A DNA stretch of 64,000 bases from assembly GCF_008087665.1 (NCBI RefSeq), contig NZ_CP042912.1, positions 4,898,001 through 4,962,000 of the forward strand, in the 5' to 3' direction. A program made the translations under genes and the position numbers. The stretch is from Mariniblastus fucicola. Its GTDB lineage: Bacteria > Planctomycetota > Planctomycetia > Pirellulales > Pirellulaceae. A model generated the notes under the pieces. It was not told where the DNA came from. It did not search any database and saw only the letters and a list, made by a program, of their open reading frames with translations. Below are positions 3,932-42,281 of this stretch, one piece after another (within the stretch, counting starts at the first letter, position 1; each line of letters starts with the position of its first letter).

Positions 3932-6404
3932 CCCAAATCGAACCAGCCCAGTTCCTGTTAACAACGAACTGCACTGGAATCCAATCGCTTTGCTGGGGGC
4001 GTTGCTGGCGGGCTTCGCCGTGCACATGTTCCGGATGGACCATCATCGCTGGGTGCCAGCGATCTGGATCGAGTTCGCGGCTTTCTCATTGGCTTCTGTC
4101 GCAATGTTTTATGTGGTAAGGCGCTGGATCGGCCGTCGCAAGACTCCAGTCCCCCAACAGACAGTCGCCTATCTCGCTCAAGCGGGTGCTGCAGTTTCCG
4201 TTCTGGCTCTGATCGCCTGGCATCTGATTTCGCGGAACATCGGGCTCGGCGATGCCAACGAGACCGTCGCTCTATTGGCAGTGCAATGCATCAGTTGGCA
4301 CATTGCAGTTTTTGCGTCGGTAAAAGGTTTTGAGAAGACAAGCCTGGTGCTGTGCGGCGCGATCGTATTCTTCGTCTGTTGCATGACCAGTCGATTCGAC
4401 ATCCTCTTGCTGGGCTCCATTTTTGCCGCCGCGGCCCTTTGGTGGTTGGCCGGGATCTACTGGTCAACGCTTGACTCAAAAGCCATCGACGGCAATCCAA
4501 AAACGATTCAAATTCACGGAGCATCGACTGCCATCGGAGTGATTGCGATCGCGATCGGGCTTGGGATTGCAATGCTCGTCCCTTTGTCAACGAACCGGAT
4601 TTCTATCCGTGGCTTCATGCCATTTTCGGGCGGAGAAGAAGGCTATCAGGACGAATTTGCGACTTCTGGTGTCGGCGACGGAAACATGCTGATGGCCGGG
4701 AATAACGCAACCACGACCGGAGCAGTAGATTCGAACGAGTTCATCGAGGACGACAAGCCTTCGATGTACGACGTGATGACGGAAAAGTACGACGGACCAG
4801 CTCGCAAAAAAAAGTTCAATCGCGCGGTTGCTCTCGATGAGGTCGCCAAACACATCCATGACGTTGTGCAGTCTGAACAATCTGGCAGAACGTTCCGCAC
4901 AATGCGAAACACGGACAAAACTTCCGACATCAAACTGAAAGACAAGCTGACGAAGGCTCTGTTTTTTGTGGAAGGATCGGTGCCGGCGAGGTTCGTCATT
5001 GAATCGTTTCAACATTTCGACGGGCTGGACTGGACAAGGTTACCCCTTGAAAAGACCGGTCCAACGCCGCCCAAACTGGTTTTGCAAACGCGAATGGAAA
5101 AGCCGGTTTTCAAGATGTGTCTTTTCAGGTCCGGCTACCTCACTTCGAGTCGCAGTCATCGAGTGAAGATCATGCGACTGCAAACTCCGAACCTTCCTTC
5201 GCCAGCCTTCCTTGATCGATGGCACATCGACCGGGTGAATGACCCGCAAATCTTCCAATGCAACGATGCCGGCCACGTGCAGTTTGCGGGAGAAGTGATT
5301 CCCGAGCAAACGGTGATCGACGTTCAGGGCTATGTGCCGAACTACCACACCATGCGATCCGCAAATGACCTTCGCAACTGTCGGCCTACCAGTTGGGGAA
5401 AGAAGATGTTGGGCAAGCTGGCTGGGGAGACCGAGGAGGATCCAGATCCGGCTTGGCAGCAAACGATGCCGAAGCTGTTCGACAAAGAGAACTCTCCGTT
5501 TTTACAAATCCCGGACAACGGTTCGCGTCAAGAAATTGAATCGCTGGCGAAAGCCTATACAGAAGGCATCCGTCCGGGCTGGAATCAAATCGAAGCCATC
5601 GTCAATCGCATACGGGAAGATTTTGAACTCGATCCTGAGTCCTCGGACGGCGGCAGTTCGGATGTCGTGATCTTAGAAGCCCCGGAGGACACCGTTGGGC
5701 AATTTCTGGATCAAAAAGGTGGGCCTTCCTGGATGTTCGCATCCAGTTGCGTCATGGCATTGCGAAGCGCGGGCTATCCCACTCGTTTGGCAAGCGGTTT
5801 TCTGGTGAAAGAAGAGGACTACAACCGGAAGGCTCGTCAATCGATTGTCACATCCGACAACATGCACATGTGGCCGGAAGTATGCCTGGACGGAAAGTAC
5901 TGGATCCCTCTTGAGCCGACTCCGGGATTCCCGGTCCCGTACAGTACCGAAACGATGTGGCAATGGCTGACCTCGAAAGCATACGCCGCCTACTATTGGA
6001 TTTGCGATCACCCGCTTACCTGTTTCCTGGTGGCGACGGGTCTCGTTTTGACCTACCTGTATCGCGTGAATTTCATCACGTTTCTGATGTTGATCTGGTG
6101 GCACCTGAGTCGATGTTTCTGGCCTCAAAACTTGCTTCGTGCGACGAGGCAATTGATCGATCTACGATTCTGGGCGGCAGGTGACAGCCGACCGCTGTCC
6201 AAAACGATCATGTCCTGGTACAGCCGGGTCGATCCGGGACTTTCGACTGGATTCTATGACCTGTGGAACGGCCAGAACTACGGCGACCAACAAAACATTG
6301 GCCGAGCGGATCTGGCTGCTCACTGTCGGCAGCAGATCGAACAATTGACCCTCAAGAAAATCAAAACGTTCGTCATCGAAAAATCCAAACGAGAGGCACC
6401 ATGA
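3918..6404 (+). CDS. Transglutaminase-like membrane protein (TgpA type)
   Basis: An 828-residue membrane protein. It has about six N-terminal transmembrane segments (residues 15-215), a large extracytoplasmic region with a transglutaminase-like core (about 590-680), and a further TM segment near 700. The catalytic triad region shows Cys611 (in SSCVMALRSAGYPTR), His650 (in HMWPEV) and Glu666 in LEPTPG, where most relatives have Asp (DPTPG). Start 3918 follows a GGAG motif. Its ATGA stop/start overlap with the MoxR gene, and the upstream DUF58 overlap, make a three-gene coupled unit. Family knowledge suggests periplasmic protease or crosslinking-like activity. The Asp-to-Glu change is conservative and may still be active. 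Confidence 0.85.
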   Translation: MRLDSPNRTSPVPVNNELHWNPIALLGALLAGFAVHMFRMDHHRWVPAIWIEFAAFSLASVAMFYVVRRWIGRRKTPVPQQTVAYLAQAGAAVSVLALIAWHLISRNIGLGDANETVALLAVQCISWHIAVFASVKGFEKTSLVLCGAIVFFVCCMTSRFDILLLGSIFAAAALWWLAGIYWSTLDSKAIDGNPKTIQIHGASTAIGVIAIAIGLGIAMLVPLSTNRISIRGFMPFSGGEEGYQDEFATSGVGDGNMLMAGNNATTTGAVDSNEFIEDDKPSMYDVMTEKYDGPARKKKFNRAVALDEVAKHIHDVVQSEQSGRTFRTMRNTDKTSDIKLKDKLTKALFFVEGSVPARFVIESFQHFDGLDWTRLPLEKTGPTPPKLVLQTRMEKPVFKMCLFRSGYLTSSRSHRVKIMRLQTPNLPSPAFLDRWHIDRVNDPQIFQCNDAGHVQFAGEVIPEQTVIDVQGYVPNYHTMRSANDLRNCRPTSWGKKMLGKLAGETEEDPDPAWQQTMPKLFDKENSPFLQIPDNGSRQEIESLAKAYTEGIRPGWNQIEAIVNRIREDFELDPESSDGGSSDVVILEAPEDTVGQFLDQKGGPSWMFASSCVMALRSAGYPTRLASGFLVKEEDYNRKARQSIVTSDNMHMWPEVCLDGKYWIPLEPTPGFPVPYSTETMWQWLTSKAYAAYYWICDHPLTCFLVATGLVLTYLYRVNFITFLMLIWWHLSRCFWPQNLLRATRQLIDLRFWAAGDSRPLSKTIMSWYSRVDPGLSTGFYDLWNGQNYGDQQNIGRADLAAHCRQQIEQLTLKKIKTFVIEKSKREAP

Positions 6405-7342
6405 TTCAGAACCTTGAACCGAAGATATCCAACGAGAAAGTTGACGCTCTCAGGGATGCTCTGAACGCTGCATTGGTCGGCAAAGCGGACGTCGTCGAAA
6501 TGGTCATCGCTTGCATCCTTGCTCAGGGACATCTGCTGTTCGACGACCTCCCGGGACTTGGAAAGACAACGCTTGCGAAAGCAATTGCGTCTGCGATCGG
6601 AGGCAATTTTGCGCGTGTTCAATGTACGCCTGACCTGCTTCCCACCGACATCTCCGGCTTCAATGTCTTTAACCAAAAACTGCAGGAGTTTCAGTTCAGA
6701 CCGGGCCCCGTTTTTTCGGACCTGTTGTTGGCAGACGAAATCAATCGGGCAACGCCGCGAACACAGAGCTCGCTTTTCGAAGCGATGGCAGAGTGGCAAG
6801 TAACGCTGGACAATCAAACGATGCCGTTGGCCAAGACCTTCCTTGTGCTGGCGACTCAGAACCCGACCGAAAGCCATGGCGTGTTCCCGCTGCCAGAAGC
6901 TCAGCTTGACCGTTTTGCGATCAAGCTGAGCATTGGATATCCGTCACGGCTCAATGAGATCCAGATGCTTGCGGACAAGGTGGGAGACACCGGAGATGCT
7001 GTCGAACCACAACCGGTTCTCACTCTTGATGAGCTGGAAAAGTTCCAAAAAGAGGTCGTGGGCATCAAGGTCAGCGAAAACGTACGCGGCTACCTCGTCG
7101 ATCTTGCCGCGGTCACAAGAGATCACGACGAAGTCGATACCGGATTAAGCCCGCGTGGCCTGATCATTTGGCAACGAATGGCCCAAGCCTGGGCGTGGAT
7201 GCGAGGGCAGGAGTTTGTCACGCCAGACGACATCCAAACGGTCGCCAAACCGGTCCTTCGACTTCGAATCTCCAGCCGGAAAATCGATGCGGATCGAATT
7301 ATCGACGAAGTCATCGACTCTGTGAAAGTTCCCGGCCTGTAG
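6401..7342 (+). CDS. MoxR family AAA+ ATPase
   Basis: A 313-residue AAA+ ATPase. The Walker A is DLPGLGKTT (residues 49-57) and the Walker B is LLLADEINRAT (about 108-117). Sensor and arginine-finger elements follow, including a typical LATQNP segment and PEAQLDRF. The start is the ATG overlapping the transglutaminase stop (ATGA), preceded by GAGAGG. A longer frame upstream lies inside the previous gene and is not used. MoxR ATPases act as chaperone-like assembly factors, usually with DUF58/vWA partners. Here they are encoded in the order DUF58, transglutaminase, MoxR, the reverse of the commonest order. Confidence 0.92.
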   Translation: MIQNLEPKISNEKVDALRDALNAALVGKADVVEMVIACILAQGHLLFDDLPGLGKTTLAKAIASAIGGNFARVQCTPDLLPTDISGFNVFNQKLQEFQFRPGPVFSDLLLADEINRATPRTQSSLFEAMAEWQVTLDNQTMPLAKTFLVLATQNPTESHGVFPLPEAQLDRFAIKLSIGYPSRLNEIQMLADKVGDTGDAVEPQPVLTLDELEKFQKEVVGIKVSENVRGYLVDLAAVTRDHDEVDTGLSPRGLIIWQRMAQAWAWMRGQEFVTPDDIQTVAKPVLRLRISSRKIDADRIIDEVIDSVKVPGL

Positions 7343-7424
7343 ACCTCGATCGTTCAACCTTGATTCAATTTTAAAACTTGTTGCGCCAGTGATTATCCGG
7401 CGCTCACAAATCAGGAAATCTCAA

Positions 7425-8132
7425 ATGCTTACCAAACAAAGCCTCCCAGGTGTTTCGTGGCTTCTCATTGCCGCAGCGTTTCTGTTCGTCGGCTGCGGCG
7501 AAGAAGTTGCAGTTGAACAGGCAGCGAAACCGTTGCCAAAACTTGACTTTCACAAACCAGAGAGTTTTGAAGCGGCGGTGGCACGGATTCGTGAAATCCA
7601 CAATGCGATTGTGTCGGAAGAAGCACTTCCAGCGCCAATCACCTATACGGTTGTCGAAGTCAGCCACGCCCATGGCGACGGCAATCCTCACGTGCACTAT
7701 CACCTCGCCGAAACCGAGGACCATTCGCACGAAGGACACGATCACGAAGGACACGATCACGAAGGACACGATCACGAGGGCCACGATCATGACGGTCATG
7801 ACCATGGAGACCACGATCATCGCGACCCGTTCAAAGCGGAACCGCCACGGCATAAGGTTTCAGTTGACTTGTTCACGGAACTGGAGGACATCGTCCGCTG
7901 GTTGCCGGCGATCGCGTCAGACGGTGACCTTCCGCAGGATCAGTGGAATCAAGCCAACGCATTGTCTGAAGATATGACAGGGCGACTGGAATCGATCCAA
8001 GGTGACGGGATGCCACTGCTCCAACGTGCCAGCTATCAGGAAAAGGCTGCTGAGATGGAGAAATGCCTGGGCGAACTGGAGGCGATTGTTGTGCCAACGA
8101 CTTCACCTTCCAAAAGCGAACCAAGCGAATAG
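7425..8132 (+). CDS. Histidine-rich lipoprotein, putative metal binder
   Basis: A 235-residue lipoprotein. It has a signal sequence ending in the lipobox LFVGC (Cys at about residue 23). A His/Asp/Glu/Gly-rich block at about 103-135 is built of GHDHE-type pentapeptides encoded by 15-bp DNA repeats. The C-terminal part (about 140-235) is predicted to be helical. The His-rich block suggests binding of zinc, copper or nickel at the cell envelope. The permease gene starts 22 bases downstream, so the pair probably acts together in metal or metalloid handling. I do not recognise the globular part. The role is inferred from composition and neighbourhood. Confidence 0.75.
   Translation: MLTKQSLPGVSWLLIAAAFLFVGCGEEVAVEQAAKPLPKLDFHKPESFEAAVARIREIHNAIVSEEALPAPITYTVVEVSHAHGDGNPHVHYHLAETEDHSHEGHDHEGHDHEGHDHEGHDHDGHDHGDHDHRDPFKAEPPRHKVSVDLFTELEDIVRWLPAIASDGDLPQDQWNQANALSEDMTGRLESIQGDGMPLLQRASYQEKAAEMEKCLGELEAIVVPTTSPSKSEPSE
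7731..7820 (+). repeat. Six 15-bp tandem units coding GHDHE-like repeats
   Basis: Three identical copies of GAAGGACACGATCAC (7731-7775) are followed by three diverged copies (7776-7820). They lie in frame and encode the histidine-rich block of the lipoprotein. The exactness of the first three copies suggests recent duplication or slippage, so repeat number may vary between strains. Confidence 0.9.
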
Positions 8133-8154
8133 CTCGCTCGGCGATGGCGTTGCG

Positions 8155-9762
8155 ATGGTGTCCGTCGCGTCTGGCCTGACTGACACTGAACTAAACGCGG
8201 AACTTTTTCGGAATCGCAGAATCGCAATGCTGGAATACTATCTTTTCGGAGGCGGCTTACGTCTTGGACAAATCATCATCTATTCTTCTCTGTGGCTGGT
8301 GATCGGTTTCATTGTTGCAGGTATTTTCCGCAACATGCTGGGGCCCGCGAAAGTCAGAAAGCTGTTTGGTGAAGGAACGAAGCGTGGAATTTTTACCGGT
8401 TGGCTGATCGGAATGCTGCTTCCCGTCTGCTCGCTGGGAGCGATTCCGATCGTTCGCGAACTGTATCGCTCGAAAGTCAAAGGCGGAACGATCATCGCGT
8501 TTGGACTGACCGCGCCGCTGTTCAATCCGATGTCGATCCTCTACGGACTGACACTGTCAGATCCGATTGCCATACTTTCATTTTCGCTTTGCGCGTTGGT
8601 GATTGTTGGTTTGCTGGGCATTCTCTGGGACCGTTTCTACCCGGACACGGTAGAAGAATTCCCCGACGTCAAAATGCCTGCTCCTGGGATCAAGCGAATC
8701 GCGGCTGTCTTCTACTCGGCCGTTCGTGACGCGACAGGATCGACATTGATCTATGTCCTCATCGGAATCGCGTGCTCGGTTTTGACTGCGGTATCGTTTG
8801 AAAAAGGCCACTTGCAATACGGAGTCGAACAGGACAACGTCCTAGCTCCGGTGCTCGTCGCGGCCGTCGCGTTGCCGATCTACAGCACGCCGCTTTTGGC
8901 GATGAGTCAGGTTGGCGGAATGTTTCAACATGGCAACTCCATCGGAGGCGCGTTTGCGCTGCTCATTCTCGGCGCAGGAGCCAACATCGGGCTGCTGGTG
9001 TGGTTCAACGTGACCTATGGATGGAAACGGAGCTTGGCTTTCCTCACCTTATTGTTTGTGACGACGATTGCTCTCGCGTATGCGATCGACAAACCGCTTA
9101 CACCGAAAGGCATCACACCGGCAGGCCATTCGCACGCATTCGATGTCTACACTCACCCGTTCAACAAAAGCCAATCAGATATCGGACGTATTTGGCGAAC
9201 ACAGCTTTCAGAATTTTGGCGAGTCAACGAGCTTGGCGGTACGTGGATTCTTGGCGGTTTCCTGTTGGCTGGAATCGTTATTCGATGCTGCGGCACGGCC
9301 CGGGTTGAGTCATGGCTCTATTCGGAATCTCCCGCACCGGAACGCAAATACGACTTCGATGTTCCCGGCTGGGTTTTGGGCGGTACGACGGTCAGCGGTT
9401 TGATCGCAGCGAGTGTCGTTGGATGCTATTTTTACTATCCGTCTCCGGAGCAACTGCTGCCGGACCTGTCCACGATCAACACCGAGTGCGTATTGTCAGC
9501 GAAGAACCAGCAATGGGAAGCCGCCGAAAAGTGGATTCCTTACGCAGACGATCTCTCGAGGCGATTGGAAGTCGGTGTGTTTTTGCGCAACGGTTCGGTC
9601 GACGAGTTCAAGACCGCGAAAGCCAAAACCTATCGTGACAAACTGGACAAGCTAAAAGAGCTGGTCGAGCAGCGTGAAGGCGAAAACATCGAGGCTTACG
9701 CGATGGACCTTTCGAAATCCTATCAGCGGTTGAGCCGGGCGTTCAAGGACGAAGCAGAGTAA
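8155..9762 (+). CDS. DUF318/ArsP-like permease, putative metal(loid) efflux
   Basis: A polytopic membrane protein of about 535 residues (511 if ATG 8227 is the start). The core resembles the DUF318/ArsP permease family, with the hallmark LLPVCSLGAIPIV and a second half with a matching PLFNPMS segment. About eight to ten TM helices are visible, then a final TM near 420-440 and a soluble, charged C-terminal tail (about 440-535). A loop near 320-330 carries HSHAFDVYTH. The family includes organoarsenical and copper/zinc exporters. The His-rich lipoprotein immediately upstream favours a transition metal. Neither possible start has a good ribosome site. The long upstream part of the frame overlaps the lipoprotein and is not used. 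Confidence 0.8.
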   Translation: MVSVASGLTDTELNAELFRNRRIAMLEYYLFGGGLRLGQIIIYSSLWLVIGFIVAGIFRNMLGPAKVRKLFGEGTKRGIFTGWLIGMLLPVCSLGAIPIVRELYRSKVKGGTIIAFGLTAPLFNPMSILYGLTLSDPIAILSFSLCALVIVGLLGILWDRFYPDTVEEFPDVKMPAPGIKRIAAVFYSAVRDATGSTLIYVLIGIACSVLTAVSFEKGHLQYGVEQDNVLAPVLVAAVALPIYSTPLLAMSQVGGMFQHGNSIGGAFALLILGAGANIGLLVWFNVTYGWKRSLAFLTLLFVTTIALAYAIDKPLTPKGITPAGHSHAFDVYTHPFNKSQSDIGRIWRTQLSEFWRVNELGGTWILGGFLLAGIVIRCCGTARVESWLYSESPAPERKYDFDVPGWVLGGTTVSGLIAASVVGCYFYYPSPEQLLPDLSTINTECVLSAKNQQWEAAEKWIPYADDLSRRLEVGVFLRNGSVDEFKTAKAKTYRDKLDKLKELVEQREGENIEAYAMDLSKSYQRLSRAFKDEAE

Positions 9763-11560: not shown

Positions 11561-11628
11561 TGAGCGACAGGGCGCTAGCCGTCGTTTCGCCGCACCCTCG
11601 ATACCGGCGGCTAGCGCCGTGCCGCTCA
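11561..11628. repeat. Intergenic palindromic element, copy 1
   Basis: The left arm 11561-11584 (TGAGCGACAGGGCGCTAGCC plus TGCG-like bases) pairs with the right arm 11605-11628, read in reverse complement, with three mismatches. About 20 bases separate the arms. The core CGGCTAGCGCC and the outer TGAGCG ends match the better-preserved copy at 41335-41400. It lies between the divergent ispF and ABC ATPase genes and outside both coding regions. Confidence 0.85.
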
Positions 11629-39329: not shown

Positions 39330-40484
39330 TCATAACTCCCCACGTACGATACCGGCAGCTTTAACCATTGACTGCAACTTTTTTGCAGCAACGGACTCTT
39401 CATTGACACAACGGTTCGCGAAACAACCGAACCCGCAATCTGGATTCAGAAAGATCTTTTGCGGATCCCAAAATCCGAGTGCTTCCCTGATCCTCGCGGC
39501 AATGAAATCCGGCGATTCCGCCACGTCAGTTCGCGGGTTCACGCACCCCAAACCGATTTCCCTGTCCGACAAGGCTTGGCCGACCACACTCAAGTCACCG
39601 GCGCGCGGCGTCGCGTATTCCAAAACCAATTGCTGAACGTTCATCGATGCAAAACAATCCACCAGCGGTTGGTAGTCACCAGTGATCATGACATCTTCAC
39701 GTTTGGACCAGTTGCCTCGACAAACATGCAGCCCAATACGTGCTCGCCCCGCGAACCCATCGATCACACGATTCAAAAGCTCCGCAGCATACGTTAGCTC
39801 TGCACCCGCATCACGGCGGGTCGCCAAAGTCGCTCACATAAAGGTGCGCCGTTTGTCGTCGCTGCTGTGAACAACTTCGGTCAGGATCGGTTCGTCGAAT
39901 TGAATGAATTCAGCTCCTGCCTGAATCAGCTCCTCAAGCTCTTCACGCAGGATCGAAACGATGTCGTCTGCCATCACCGGTTTATCGCCGTAGGCTCCGG
40001 TCGAATAGGAGGTCACCCACATCGCCCGAGTCAGCAAATAGGGGCCCGGCAGTGTGACTTTAACCGGTTTGTCCGTTAGCGAGCGAAGGAACTTCAGTTC
40101 GCCGCCGGCCAGTGGTTCGCGGCGGCGAAGTTTCCCCACACAGGTGGGATTGCGGATGGAAAACGCGGGTGCATCGAGCGTTTGCAACATCTCTTCAAAA
40201 GCGGCTTTGTCTTCGACCGTCTCGAGCATATCGGCCAACGACATCAACTTGGTCCCGTCGACTTTGTCAGTGATGAAAGAATAAAAATTGTCGCGCCGAA
40301 GCTCGCCATCGACCACGATATCGACGCCAGCGGCGTGCTGCAGCTCAATACAACGCCGGATTTCGTCATCAGCAAAACGGTTGAATTGCTCGTCACTGAT
40401 CCGCCCCATCCGTTTTTCGCGCAGCGCCGCAAGCAGCTCTTTCGAACGCGGCCACGAACCGACTTGAGTGACTGGAAACAGCAT
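39330..40484 (-). CDS. MetE C-terminal-like methyltransferase with one in-frame TGA (candidate selenoprotein)
   Basis: Reading through one TGA (39836-39834, codon 217) gives a continuous 384-residue protein of the cobalamin-independent methionine synthase II-like family (COG0620). N-terminal landmarks are FPVTQVGSWPRS, DGELRRDNFYSF and the Asp-Glu in QFDEPILTE. The zinc ligands after the TGA are intact: His253 and Cys255 in LHVCRGNW, Glu289 in LVLEYATPRAG, and Cys350 in NPDCGFG. No other stop or frameshift occurs. The TGA lies in the context RRTFM-TGA-ATLATRRD; from memory relatives often have Cys there (FMCA.L). The downstream half could not start well (only TTG 39827). This could be selenocysteine readthrough, another recoding, or a recent nonsense mutation. 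It starts 10 bases after the TusA-OsmC gene. Confidence 0.8.
39802..39824 (-). promoter_or_regulatory. Hairpin downstream of the in-frame TGA, bacterial SECIS-like
   Basis: Read on the minus strand, ACCCGC (39821-39816), loop CGTGAT, GCGGGT (39809-39804) gives a perfect 6-bp upper stem. Two more G-C pairs follow below a single-base bulge. The loop occupies bases 19-24 after the TGA and has G at its second position. These features fit the published general model for bacterial SECIS elements, but a short GC hairpin can arise by chance in coding DNA. Confidence 0.45.
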
Positions 40485-40494
40485 GCCTGGTCCG

Positions 40495-41253
40495 TTAAAG
40501 GGTTACGATTCTGGCGTCGATCTGACAGGATTTAATCAACGTTTGAAACACCGGCGAATCCTGCAATCCTGCTTGCCAAGCTTGCTCCACCATCGCGTCG
40601 TCCGCCGAAGTCGTGAGGTAGACGGTCAGAGCAATCGTTTCGATCGACGGGTCTCCTGATTCGAATCCTGCGGCGGCCAACGAGTTTACCAACGTCGCGT
40701 TGAGCGTTGCTTCCAAGTCGTCGACCACCATCGAAAGCCGACTGCATCGAATGGAAAAGCAGGCGATGACGTTGGCCAGCAGGGAACCGAGGAACTGCTC
40801 CAGCGAAGTTGCCGTTTCCGATTTTCGATCGAAGTCAATCGACGCCCCGGACTGCCAGGAAAAGTTACGCGAATAGACCGTCGTTTGGTGGCCATCTGTT
40901 TGACGTGCACGAAGGCTCCACTTGAATTGCTGAGCCTTCTGTCGATCGGACTCAAGTTCGGCTTTCTCAGTCGCCTGATCGGAGCCGCGCTGGACCCAAT
41001 GATGCCATCGTCCACTGGAGACTTCTTCGCTTCCCAGATGGGAATGCGAAACCATGCGGCACCACGGAGGCAATTCCGAAACGACAGTCGGTTCGCTGCT
41101 TCGAATTTCCAGCACGCCGCCAACGGGAACTTCCAACATGTTTTGGCGAATCAGCAGAATCAAACCGGAACCGCAATCCATCGCGCCTCCATCGAACACA
41201 TGGTCGGCACGCGGATAACCGTTTGGATGCGATTCGTTTTTGGATTGATTCAT
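40495..41253 (-). CDS. TusA-like / OsmC-like fusion protein
   Basis: A 252-residue protein. The N-terminal part (about 18-75) is TusA-like: AMDCGSGLILLIRQNM with Cys27 at the position of the sulfur-carrying Cys, then VPVGGVLEIRSSEPTVVSELPPWC. The usual CPxP is replaced by CGSG. The C-terminal part (about 125-250) is OsmC-like, with a central helix GSLLANVIACFSIRCSRL and LTVYLTTSADDAMV. The second OsmC Cys (normally in a C-P motif) seems to be Ser (DSPV). Such fusions suggest transfer of persulfide or peroxide-linked chemistry between domains. It is directly upstream of the MetE-like gene. Confidence 0.78.
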   Translation of the reverse strand: MNQSKNESHPNGYPRADHVFDGGAMDCGSGLILLIRQNMLEVPVGGVLEIRSSEPTVVSELPPWCRMVSHSHLGSEEVSSGRWHHWVQRGSDQATEKAELESDRQKAQQFKWSLRARQTDGHQTTVYSRNFSWQSGASIDFDRKSETATSLEQFLGSLLANVIACFSIRCSRLSMVVDDLEATLNATLVNSLAAAGFESGDPSIETIALTVYLTTSADDAMVEQAWQAGLQDSPVFQTLIKSCQIDARIVTL

Positions 41254-41334: not shown

Positions 41335-41400
41335 TGAGCGACAAGGCGCTAGCCGCCGTTCCGTTGCGCTTTTTAACGGCGGCTAGCGCCTTGCCGCTCA
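41335..41400. repeat. Intergenic palindromic element, copy 2
   Basis: The left arm 41335-41360 and the right arm 41375-41400 are inverted repeats of 26 bases with a single mismatch, separated by a 14-base loop. The core is GGCGCTAGCCGCC. The ends are TGAGCG and CGCTCA. A second, more diverged copy is at 11561-11628. It lies in the gap between the DsrE-like and TusA-OsmC genes and could fold into a long hairpin in RNA. Confidence 0.92.
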
Positions 41401-41448: not shown

Positions 41449-41814
41449 CTAGTAGCTAACGTTGGGAGAACCGTTGCTCAGCCATTCAACCAGGACGGCT
41501 CCACCAGCGATTTCGACGCCATCGAAGAGCTGATCTTCCGAAATCTCCCGCTTTTTACAGCACGGAGCACAGGCAATCACGCGACCACCGGCCGCGATGA
41601 AGCGGGTGACAAGATCAGTCAACGGCTTGAACGGGCCGCCTTCATTGACGTTCGCTGCTTCATCTTTGACCGACGCCCAAACACCATCGGTGCTGAGGAA
41701 AACCATCGTGTCTTTTCCAGATCCCAACGCCGCAGTTGCGACCACGAAACCGACTGTGGCTTTGTCGCCGTTTTCCTTGCACGAGTTAATCGTTACGCAA
41801 AAAGTATCACTCAT
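41449..41814 (-). CDS. DsrE family protein
   Basis: A 121-residue DsrE/DsrF-like protein. Characteristic features are an N-terminal beta strand, ATAALGSGKDTMVFLSTDGVW (about 26-46), and a C-terminal Cys cluster CAPCCKKREI (about 81-90). DsrE-type proteins carry persulfide sulfur in relay with TusA. The start lies inside the last codons of the TusA-like gene (8-base overlap), so the two are translationally coupled. Confidence 0.87.
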   Translation of the reverse strand: MSDTFCVTINSCKENGDKATVGFVVATAALGSGKDTMVFLSTDGVWASVKDEAANVNEGGPFKPLTDLVTRFIAAGGRVIACAPCCKKREISEDQLFDGVEIAGGAVLVEWLSNGSPNVSY

Positions 41815-42058
41815 TTGAATTTCCGTTTTGATCTGGTTTTTTGATGATGTACAGCGGGTGATCCATCGAAATCAGCTCGTGCTTTGTCAGACGGCACCAC
41901 GCAGGAATCTCCAGCGGAGCTCCGGCGTCGAGAGCACGAACTTCGACGACGGCGTCTGCAGGTTGTTGTCGCATAAAGAGCAACAAGTCCAGCAGCAACT
42001 CGCCACAACCGGTTTCTCCGCCGTCGAATTTTGCGTTCGGTTCGCTACGGCTATTCAT
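41807..42058 (-). CDS. TusA-like sulfur carrier protein
   Basis: An 83-residue TusA-family protein. The segment GETGCGELLLDLLLFMRQQP holds the probable sulfur-carrying Cys (about 18), and the rest follows the family (VEVRALDAGAPLEIPAWCRLTKHELI). The canonical CPxP is changed to CGEL, similar to the CGSG of the fusion protein downstream. ATG 42058 is used because upstream residues do not fit TusA. It overlaps the DsrE-like gene, and the TusA-OsmC fusion follows. Confidence 0.82.
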   Translation of the reverse strand: MNSRSEPNAKFDGGETGCGELLLDLLLFMRQQPADAVVEVRALDAGAPLEIPAWCRLTKHELISMDHPLYIIKKPDQNGNSNE

Positions 42059-42281
42059 GCACCGTGCCCCTGTTGATTTTGAAACATCGACGCCGCGAAC
42101 TGGTTTCCCGGCTGTCAGGAAAATGCCTGAAAGTTTCGCTCGACGTTTAGCCACAGCGAAGTCGCTGATTGTCCCAGAGTCTTGCCAACGATCAATGGTC
42201 AGCGATGCAAAATCGGCCTGCTAAACGCGAAAGGAAATTTGTTTTTTGACACAGACGAGCAACCGTCGCCTTGAAACCGGT

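Follow-up and report, generated by a model that had tools for sequence, protein, structure and literature searches.

Does a TGA codon in the middle of a reading frame mark a broken gene or a site of selenocysteine (Sec) insertion and, in the latter case, what could the resulting enzyme do? This question is raised by a gene for a protein similar to the methionine synthase MetE that is found in the 64,000-nucleotide (nt) stretch of Mariniblastus fucicola contig NZ_CP042912.1 between positions 4,898,001 and 4,962,000, the whole of which is referred to here as the window. On the minus strand, positions 40484 to 39330 comprise 384 codons and a stop codon, with codon 217 as the sole in-frame TGA; rereading of this frame upheld the original prediction, made from the letters of the window, that two same-frame halves of a MetE-like gene are separated by that single codon. 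The terminal stop codon of the gene is TGA, too. Mechanical listing of open reading frames (ORFs) splits the gene into ORFs of 216 and 165 residues, and genes of this kind look broken to ordinary gene calling. The comparisons described below indicate that UGA-217 is almost certainly recoded as Sec, a conclusion with as much support as can be had from sequence alone, and that the gene very likely encodes a selenoprotein of the core-MetE-like class of zinc enzymes.

Selenocysteine or cysteine at a single site

A scan of species genomes with six peptide patterns, which finds close relatives, yielded 30 relatives of the M. fucicola gene. Over all 83 family loci examined, codon 217 is TGA in 21 and encodes Cys in 62, and no other residue was seen at this site, which is the pairing of Cys and TGA that the original prediction had named as the classical sign of a selenoprotein. 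The counts include the near-copies L041-L043 and L129-L130; they leave out L050 and L051 (exact duplicates of L019 and L020), the fragment L057, L099 (the same gene as L115), those of L055-L056 and L058-L076 that are distantly related PF01717 proteins (22-31% identity) and lack the FMC/U motif, and the further family places in genomes G291 (a second copy), G283, and G122. With duplicates removed, the window and its relatives provide 19 distinct loci with TGA at codon 217. The records with TGA come from Planctomycetota, Verrucomicrobiales, Krumholzibacteriia, Desulfopila, and unclassified bacteria; Desulfopila aestuarii DSM 18488 (L037), a named strain in culture, has the Sec form, which makes the claim directly testable.

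The half of the protein encoded downstream of the TGA, whose divergence in relatives had been named as an outcome contrary to Sec insertion, is instead conserved, with 81% identity in the relatives that retain the TGA. Between loci L023 and L025, the proportions of nonsynonymous (pN) and synonymous (pS) differences are 0.039 and 0.442 past the TGA and 0.039 and 0.466 before it, so that the protein is under purifying selection past the TGA equal to that before it.

The SECIS-like hairpin

The hairpin ACCCGC/GCGGGT that had been proposed to start 12 bases past the TGA, with the loop CGTGAT at +19 to +24 and G as its second base, was confirmed at these positions (the hairpin spans +13 to +30), and the minimum-energy structure of the bases after the TGA includes it. 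All six pairs and the G at the second loop position are kept in 19 of the 19 Sec loci of the window's clade. The six-pair hairpin is present in none of 12 Cys loci, 11 of which still have G at the loop place, and in 500 codon shuffles the number of loci that had it averaged 0.5 and never exceeded 4 of the 19. Its occurrence in all Sec loci of the clade versus so few shuffled and no Cys loci shows that the hairpin is more than a product of chance. Synonymous-codon identity over codons 222-227 is 0.95, the top value of all six-codon segments scored (the gene mean is 0.42), and 0.35 over the same segment in the Cys members. This pattern reflects selection on the RNA of the Sec-using forms, in the position where a bacterial Sec insertion sequence (SECIS) would be expected. 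The only stem change seen, a C-to-U substitution in L028, retains a G-U pair. In two other loci with TGA, L115 and L123, the candidate hairpin differs (GCCC-GGA-GGGC, n = 2).

Selenocysteine machinery and other Sec-type genes

The search for the Sec machinery that the original prediction had proposed was positive on all counts: the 6.57-Mb genome, which consists of one contig, contains selA (555 bits), selB (356 bits), selC (tRNA-Sec, 70 bits), and selD (265 bits), each above the curated cut-off. The selD gene (L077, G000:C1:4276027-4276941) lies in an open frame of 767 residues, far longer than SelD, and may be part of a fusion. The same genome carries a molybdopterin-oxidoreductase-like gene (L125, G000:C1:3929080-3930459) whose 923-residue frame contains a TGA within CAAT*HAP. 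Its match to TIGR03129 is weak and below the cut-off, and *HAP fits the UHxP motif given for Sec formate dehydrogenases in the available text of PMC13188914; this gene probably encodes such an enzyme. Of the other genomes searched, 18 of 20 with the Sec form and 38 of 43 with the Cys form have selB above the cut-off.

Several observations do not favor the recoding of UGA-217 and have to be set against the evidence above. The fold of the window's 52-nt segment is modest compared with shuffled sequences (z = -1.68, with 10 of 200 shuffles equally good), the stem is so nearly invariant that an argument from covariation is impossible, and selB was not found at an E value of 1e-50 in 2 of the 20 Sec genomes (L020 and L035, both of them drafts).

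Read-through by another route, or assignment of a different residue to TGA in this organism, would by itself also lead one to expect a conserved downstream half; this explanation is highly improbable, given that the loci without TGA all have Cys at the site, that the gene's own terminator is TGA, that the genome encodes tRNA-Sec and SelB, and that the SECIS-like hairpin is confined to the TGA forms. A nonsense mutation, which the original prediction had regarded as the main alternative, or a sequencing error would make the locus a pseudogene or a pair of separate pieces derived from an ordinary MetE-like gene. This explanation agrees with the two ORFs of the mechanical annotation but is hardly credible, because the same TGA recurs in 19 distinct loci within the clade and in 2 loci of another clade, the remaining loci have Cys, purifying selection is equal on either side of the TGA, and the hairpin is retained only together with it.

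Exchange of Sec and Cys in the evolution of the family

On a quick tree of 64 rows (21 Sec and 43 Cys), with support values solely from the Shimodaira-Hasegawa-like approximate likelihood ratio test, the Sec/Cys label needs three changes, and the well-supported branches force three. The simplest reading consists of two gains of Sec and one return to Cys, although the three changes can also be split otherwise. In that reading, the first gain would have occurred in the window's clade, and the return to Cys in four Verrucomicrobia placed inside that clade. The planctomycetal loci L115 (positions 8500-9642) and L123 (positions 7409-8545), which have TGA at the same Cys/Sec site, form a separate group that probably represents a separate gain of Sec. 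The family offers a natural experiment, since a single invariant site has switched between Sec and Cys no fewer than three times.

The view of the Cys-encoding Verrucomicrobia (L029, L030, L039, and L040) as organisms that lost the use of Sec, which was considered in that three of the four genomes lack selB above the cut-off, was dropped, because L039 carries a selD gene with an in-frame TGA and the missing selB may reflect genome incompleteness. This selD gene (positions 6323-7380, with TGA in the motif CAG*ASK) is located 1.2 kb from the Cys-form gene, on the other strand.

Protein family, fold, and predicted active site

Read with Cys at the Sec site, the product matches PF01717 with an E value of 2.3e-35. 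Its AlphaFold model, with a mean predicted local distance difference test (pLDDT) score of 86.8, matches the catalytic barrel of MetE, and in a structure search the MetE chains among ranks 1-31 had template modeling (TM) scores by query of 0.66-0.77. The 384-residue protein aligns with the C-terminal half of MetE, so that it has neither the two-barrel architecture nor the folate-binding N-terminal half. The zinc ligands His253, Cys255, Glu289, and Cys350, which the original prediction had listed as intact, are invariant in all 33 aligned sequences, as are Ser10, Glu61, and Asp197, the equivalents of homocysteine-contacting residues (the equivalence was set by alignment, and the roles are those described in the available part of PMC7857596).

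The stretch with the Cys/Sec residue falls opposite a 13-residue gap in the solved MetE from Neurospora (4ztx), and hence this Cys/Sec does not correspond to any residue known to take part in MetE catalysis. Arg318 aligns with the histidine of the DIHS motif in the same structure, a residue known as the proton donor in the Escherichia coli enzyme. Nine NCBIfam families were matched, none of them at its cut-off: the best match reached 184 of the 406 bits needed, and TIGR01371 reached 101 of 930 bits. The gene is the sole PF01717 place found in the genome, which also encodes MetH (1602 bits).

Relationship to known enzymes and selenoproteins

The protein resembles MetE in the fold of the C-terminal barrel and in the four zinc ligands, and differs from it in having one barrel instead of two and Arg318 in place of the DIHS histidine. 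It shares the single catalytic barrel and the absence of the folate-binding N-terminal half with MesA, MesB, MesC, and MesD and with the core-MetE of Dehalococcoides, as these are described in the available parts of PMC7857596 and PMC7005905, respectively; the former also reports for MesA-D the conserved His, Cys, Glu, and Cys zinc ligands and the Ser, Glu, and Asp contacts to homocysteine. Unlike MesA-D, the window protein has an extra stretch with the invariant Cys/Sec, as well as sulfur-carrier partners. It also scores below the cut-offs of the NCBIfam methionine synthase models that it matches.

With known bacterial selenoproteins the gene has in common an in-frame TGA in place of a Cys codon, a hairpin with a loop G at the expected distance, and the Sec machinery of the genome. 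The 2026 inventory of prokaryotic selenoproteins (PMC13188914, Table 1) lists 119 families and subfamilies, including those of Haft and Tolstoy 2025, and has no entry for PF01717 or methionine synthase, in line with the earlier statement that no selenoprotein of this family is established. No Sec form of the core-MetE-like family was found among the literature matches listed, in NCBIfam, or in PMC13188914, nor in the available portions of PMC2667541, PMC9402790, and PMC7435645. Bacterial selenoproteins as such are well known; the new element here would be a Sec-containing version of the core-MetE-like family, which is unassigned.

Two further systems offer partial parallels. In YedF, as presented in the available text of PMC5322559, TusA-like and DsrE-like proteins are likewise encoded adjacently; unlike in the YedF fusion, the genes in the window are separate and coupled to a MetE-like enzyme, and no NCBIfam model of YedF was matched. 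The type I mlp clusters (PMC10418091, in the part available) combine zinc methyltransferase-type enzymes of the same broad superfamily with selenium genes, whereas the enzyme family and the partners are different from those seen here. No corrinoid proteins were seen among the conserved neighbor clusters of the family.

Gene neighborhoods

The features of the locus are listed in Table 1. The neighboring genes were clustered from codon-model gene calls. The gene for the TusA-OsmC protein is located upstream and ends 10 bases before the start of the selenoprotein gene. For the TusA-like gene, ATG at 42058 is the likely start, although the open frame extends to a GTG at 42154. In some relatives the Pfam cut-offs are passed, such as that of TusA in L034 and that of OsmC in L044.

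Table 1. Features of the MetE-like locus, in coordinates of the window
Feature	Position	Strand	Basis
Predicted selenoprotein gene, single-barrel core-MetE-like zinc enzyme, 384 residues, Sec at 217	39330..40484	-	Frame, PF01717, conserved residues, AlphaFold model
TGA codon 217, predicted to be read as Sec	39834..39836	-	TGA in 21/83 and Cys in 62/83 family loci
SECIS-like hairpin ACCCGC-CGTGAT-GCGGGT, within the coding sequence	39804..39821	-	Six pairs in 19/19 Sec loci of the clade
TusA-OsmC two-domain protein	40495..41253	-	Pfam TusA 25.2 bits (cut-off 28.6), OsmC 20.4 bits (cut-off 27.5); conserved in relatives
DsrE-family protein	41449..41814	-	PF02635 47.2 bits, above the cut-off of 22.7; conserved in relatives
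TusA-like protein	41807..42058	-	PF01206 20.5 bits, below the cut-off of 28.6; conserved in relatives

Genes for TusA and DsrE are found no more than 3 kb away in 20 of the 21 Sec loci and 38 of the 62 Cys loci, and those for OsmC in 20 and 34, respectively (the flanks vary in length, and some are short). According to tblastn, the MetE-like protein carries a fused TusA domain in Paracoccus and in some Planctomycetota (L131-L144, for example). In plasmid pFER4 of Paracoccus ferrooxidans, the gene order is cysteine desulfurase (on the opposite strand), TusA, DsrE, two unknown genes, the TusA-MetE fusion (Cys form), selA (565 bits), and trxB; on the Paracoccus plasmids, selA follows the fusion gene after 77 bases. 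The two Paracoccus records are near-copies and count as one. In genomes G179 and G305, which belong to one planctomycetal genus, selB is located approximately 7 kb from the family gene. The other loci checked had no SelA, SelB, or SelD match nearby, save for a partial SelD in L030.

Some Cys members have alternative neighbors: a gene for a protein similar to substrate-binding proteins (SBP) is found near 14 of the 62 Cys loci and an acyl-CoA-dehydrogenase-like gene near 13 (near 3 and 2 of the 21 Sec loci, respectively). The Cys members L041, L042, and L044-L048 from Chloroflexota and Acidobacteriota adjoin a gene with a rhodanese domain and, mostly, an OsmC gene as well.

Possible functions

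The mechanism that we propose starts with the decoding of UGA-217 as Sec by SelB and tRNA-Sec, directed by the downstream hairpin, which would yield one 384-residue protein. In this protein, zinc would activate the thiol or selenol of an amino acid, and Sec217 would take up or release an atom of sulfane sulfur (or selenium) carried by TusA and DsrE; such a division of labor is conceivable, with the balance tilting somewhat against it. The protein could combine a zinc enzyme's homocysteine-type pocket with a second, selenium-based center, acting alongside sulfur carriers. Its activity might consist in moving sulfane sulfur or selenium, or in adding a methyl group to, or removing one from, a thiol or selenol of this kind, and this chalcogen or methyl transfer would be distinct from the housekeeping production of methionine, for which MetH is encoded in the genome. 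On a broader and more tentative view, the TusA, DsrE, OsmC, and core-MetE-like genes might constitute an undescribed chalcogen-handling pathway, in which the Sec/Cys residue of the zinc enzyme ends a relay of sulfane sulfur or selenium, possibly feeding or protecting selenium metabolism, and in which Sec was most simply gained twice. The interest of the family lies in the link that it provides between an unassigned relative of a textbook enzyme and sulfur carriers and, with less certainty, selenium genes.

Other observations fit this scheme poorly. Of the three partners in the window, only DsrE passes its Pfam cut-off, and the domain calls of the other two fall short of theirs; one Sec locus, L028, has no partner genes within 4 kb; and the pLDDT score drops to approximately 60 around residue 217, so that the model places Sec217 relative to the zinc with low confidence.

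An alternative, which we consider rather unlikely, assigns the gene group to selenium metabolism, with a role in the delivery of selenium or in the demethylation of methylated selenium compounds. It draws on the close linkage of the TusA-MetE fusion to selA and trxB in Paracoccus, the selD gene near the Cys-form gene of L039, and the position of selB in one planctomycetal genus. Further, in a sample of 392 Planctomycetota genomes, selB was detected in 46 of the 50 genomes that hold the family and in 190 of the 342 others (Fisher p = 1.4e-7, with ancestry ignored). The literature adds a link between YedF, a fusion of SirA-like and DsrE-like proteins, and selenium (available part of PMC5322559) and a proposed salvage of methylated selenium by the type I mlp clusters (available part of PMC10418091). 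However, the lack of sel genes near the other loci checked, the disregard of ancestry in the co-occurrence figure, the reduction of the two near-identical Paracoccus records to one case, and the origin of the selB distance from a single genus all count against it, and the tie of the family to selenium metabolism itself is no more than suggestive.

It is equally doubtful that the selenoprotein simply works as a core methionine synthase, taking methyl groups from a corrinoid or another donor, in which case TusA, DsrE, and OsmC would be unrelated to it or would supply the sulfur of homocysteine. The retention of the zinc ligands and of all three homocysteine-contacting residues known from PMC7857596 is what such an enzyme would require, and corrinoid methyl donors are used, or probably used, by MesA-C according to the available text of PMC7857596 and PMC7005905. 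Such a role is at odds with the presence of MetH in the genome, the absence of any match to an NCBIfam methionine synthase model at the cut-off, the invariant Cys/Sec without a counterpart in the aligned solved MetE, and the fusion of TusA to the protein in relatives.

Other observations in the window and related loci

A candidate riboswitch at approximately 38.9-39.1 kb on the plus strand was unsupported, as no Rfam match in the window exceeded the threshold and the one weak local match was irrelevant. Between the DsrE and TusA-OsmC genes, positions 41335-41400 of the window contain a palindrome with 26-bp arms, whose fold is much better than those of shuffled sequences (z = -5.96). Its core, GGCGGCTAGCGCC, recurs as an inverted pair near positions 11571-11618; the total of four matches to this core is not unusual, as 5 of 100 shuffles reach that count.

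The Cys loci L108-L112, L029, L039, and L040 adjoin acyl-CoA-dehydrogenase-like and phosphonate-binding-protein-like genes, which matched the NCBIfam models of Rv1679 and Rv1680 below the cut-off, and the window TusA weakly matches the Rv1681 radical SAM model. These matches to Rv1679-Rv1681 suggest that a related gene group may exist in mycobacteria.
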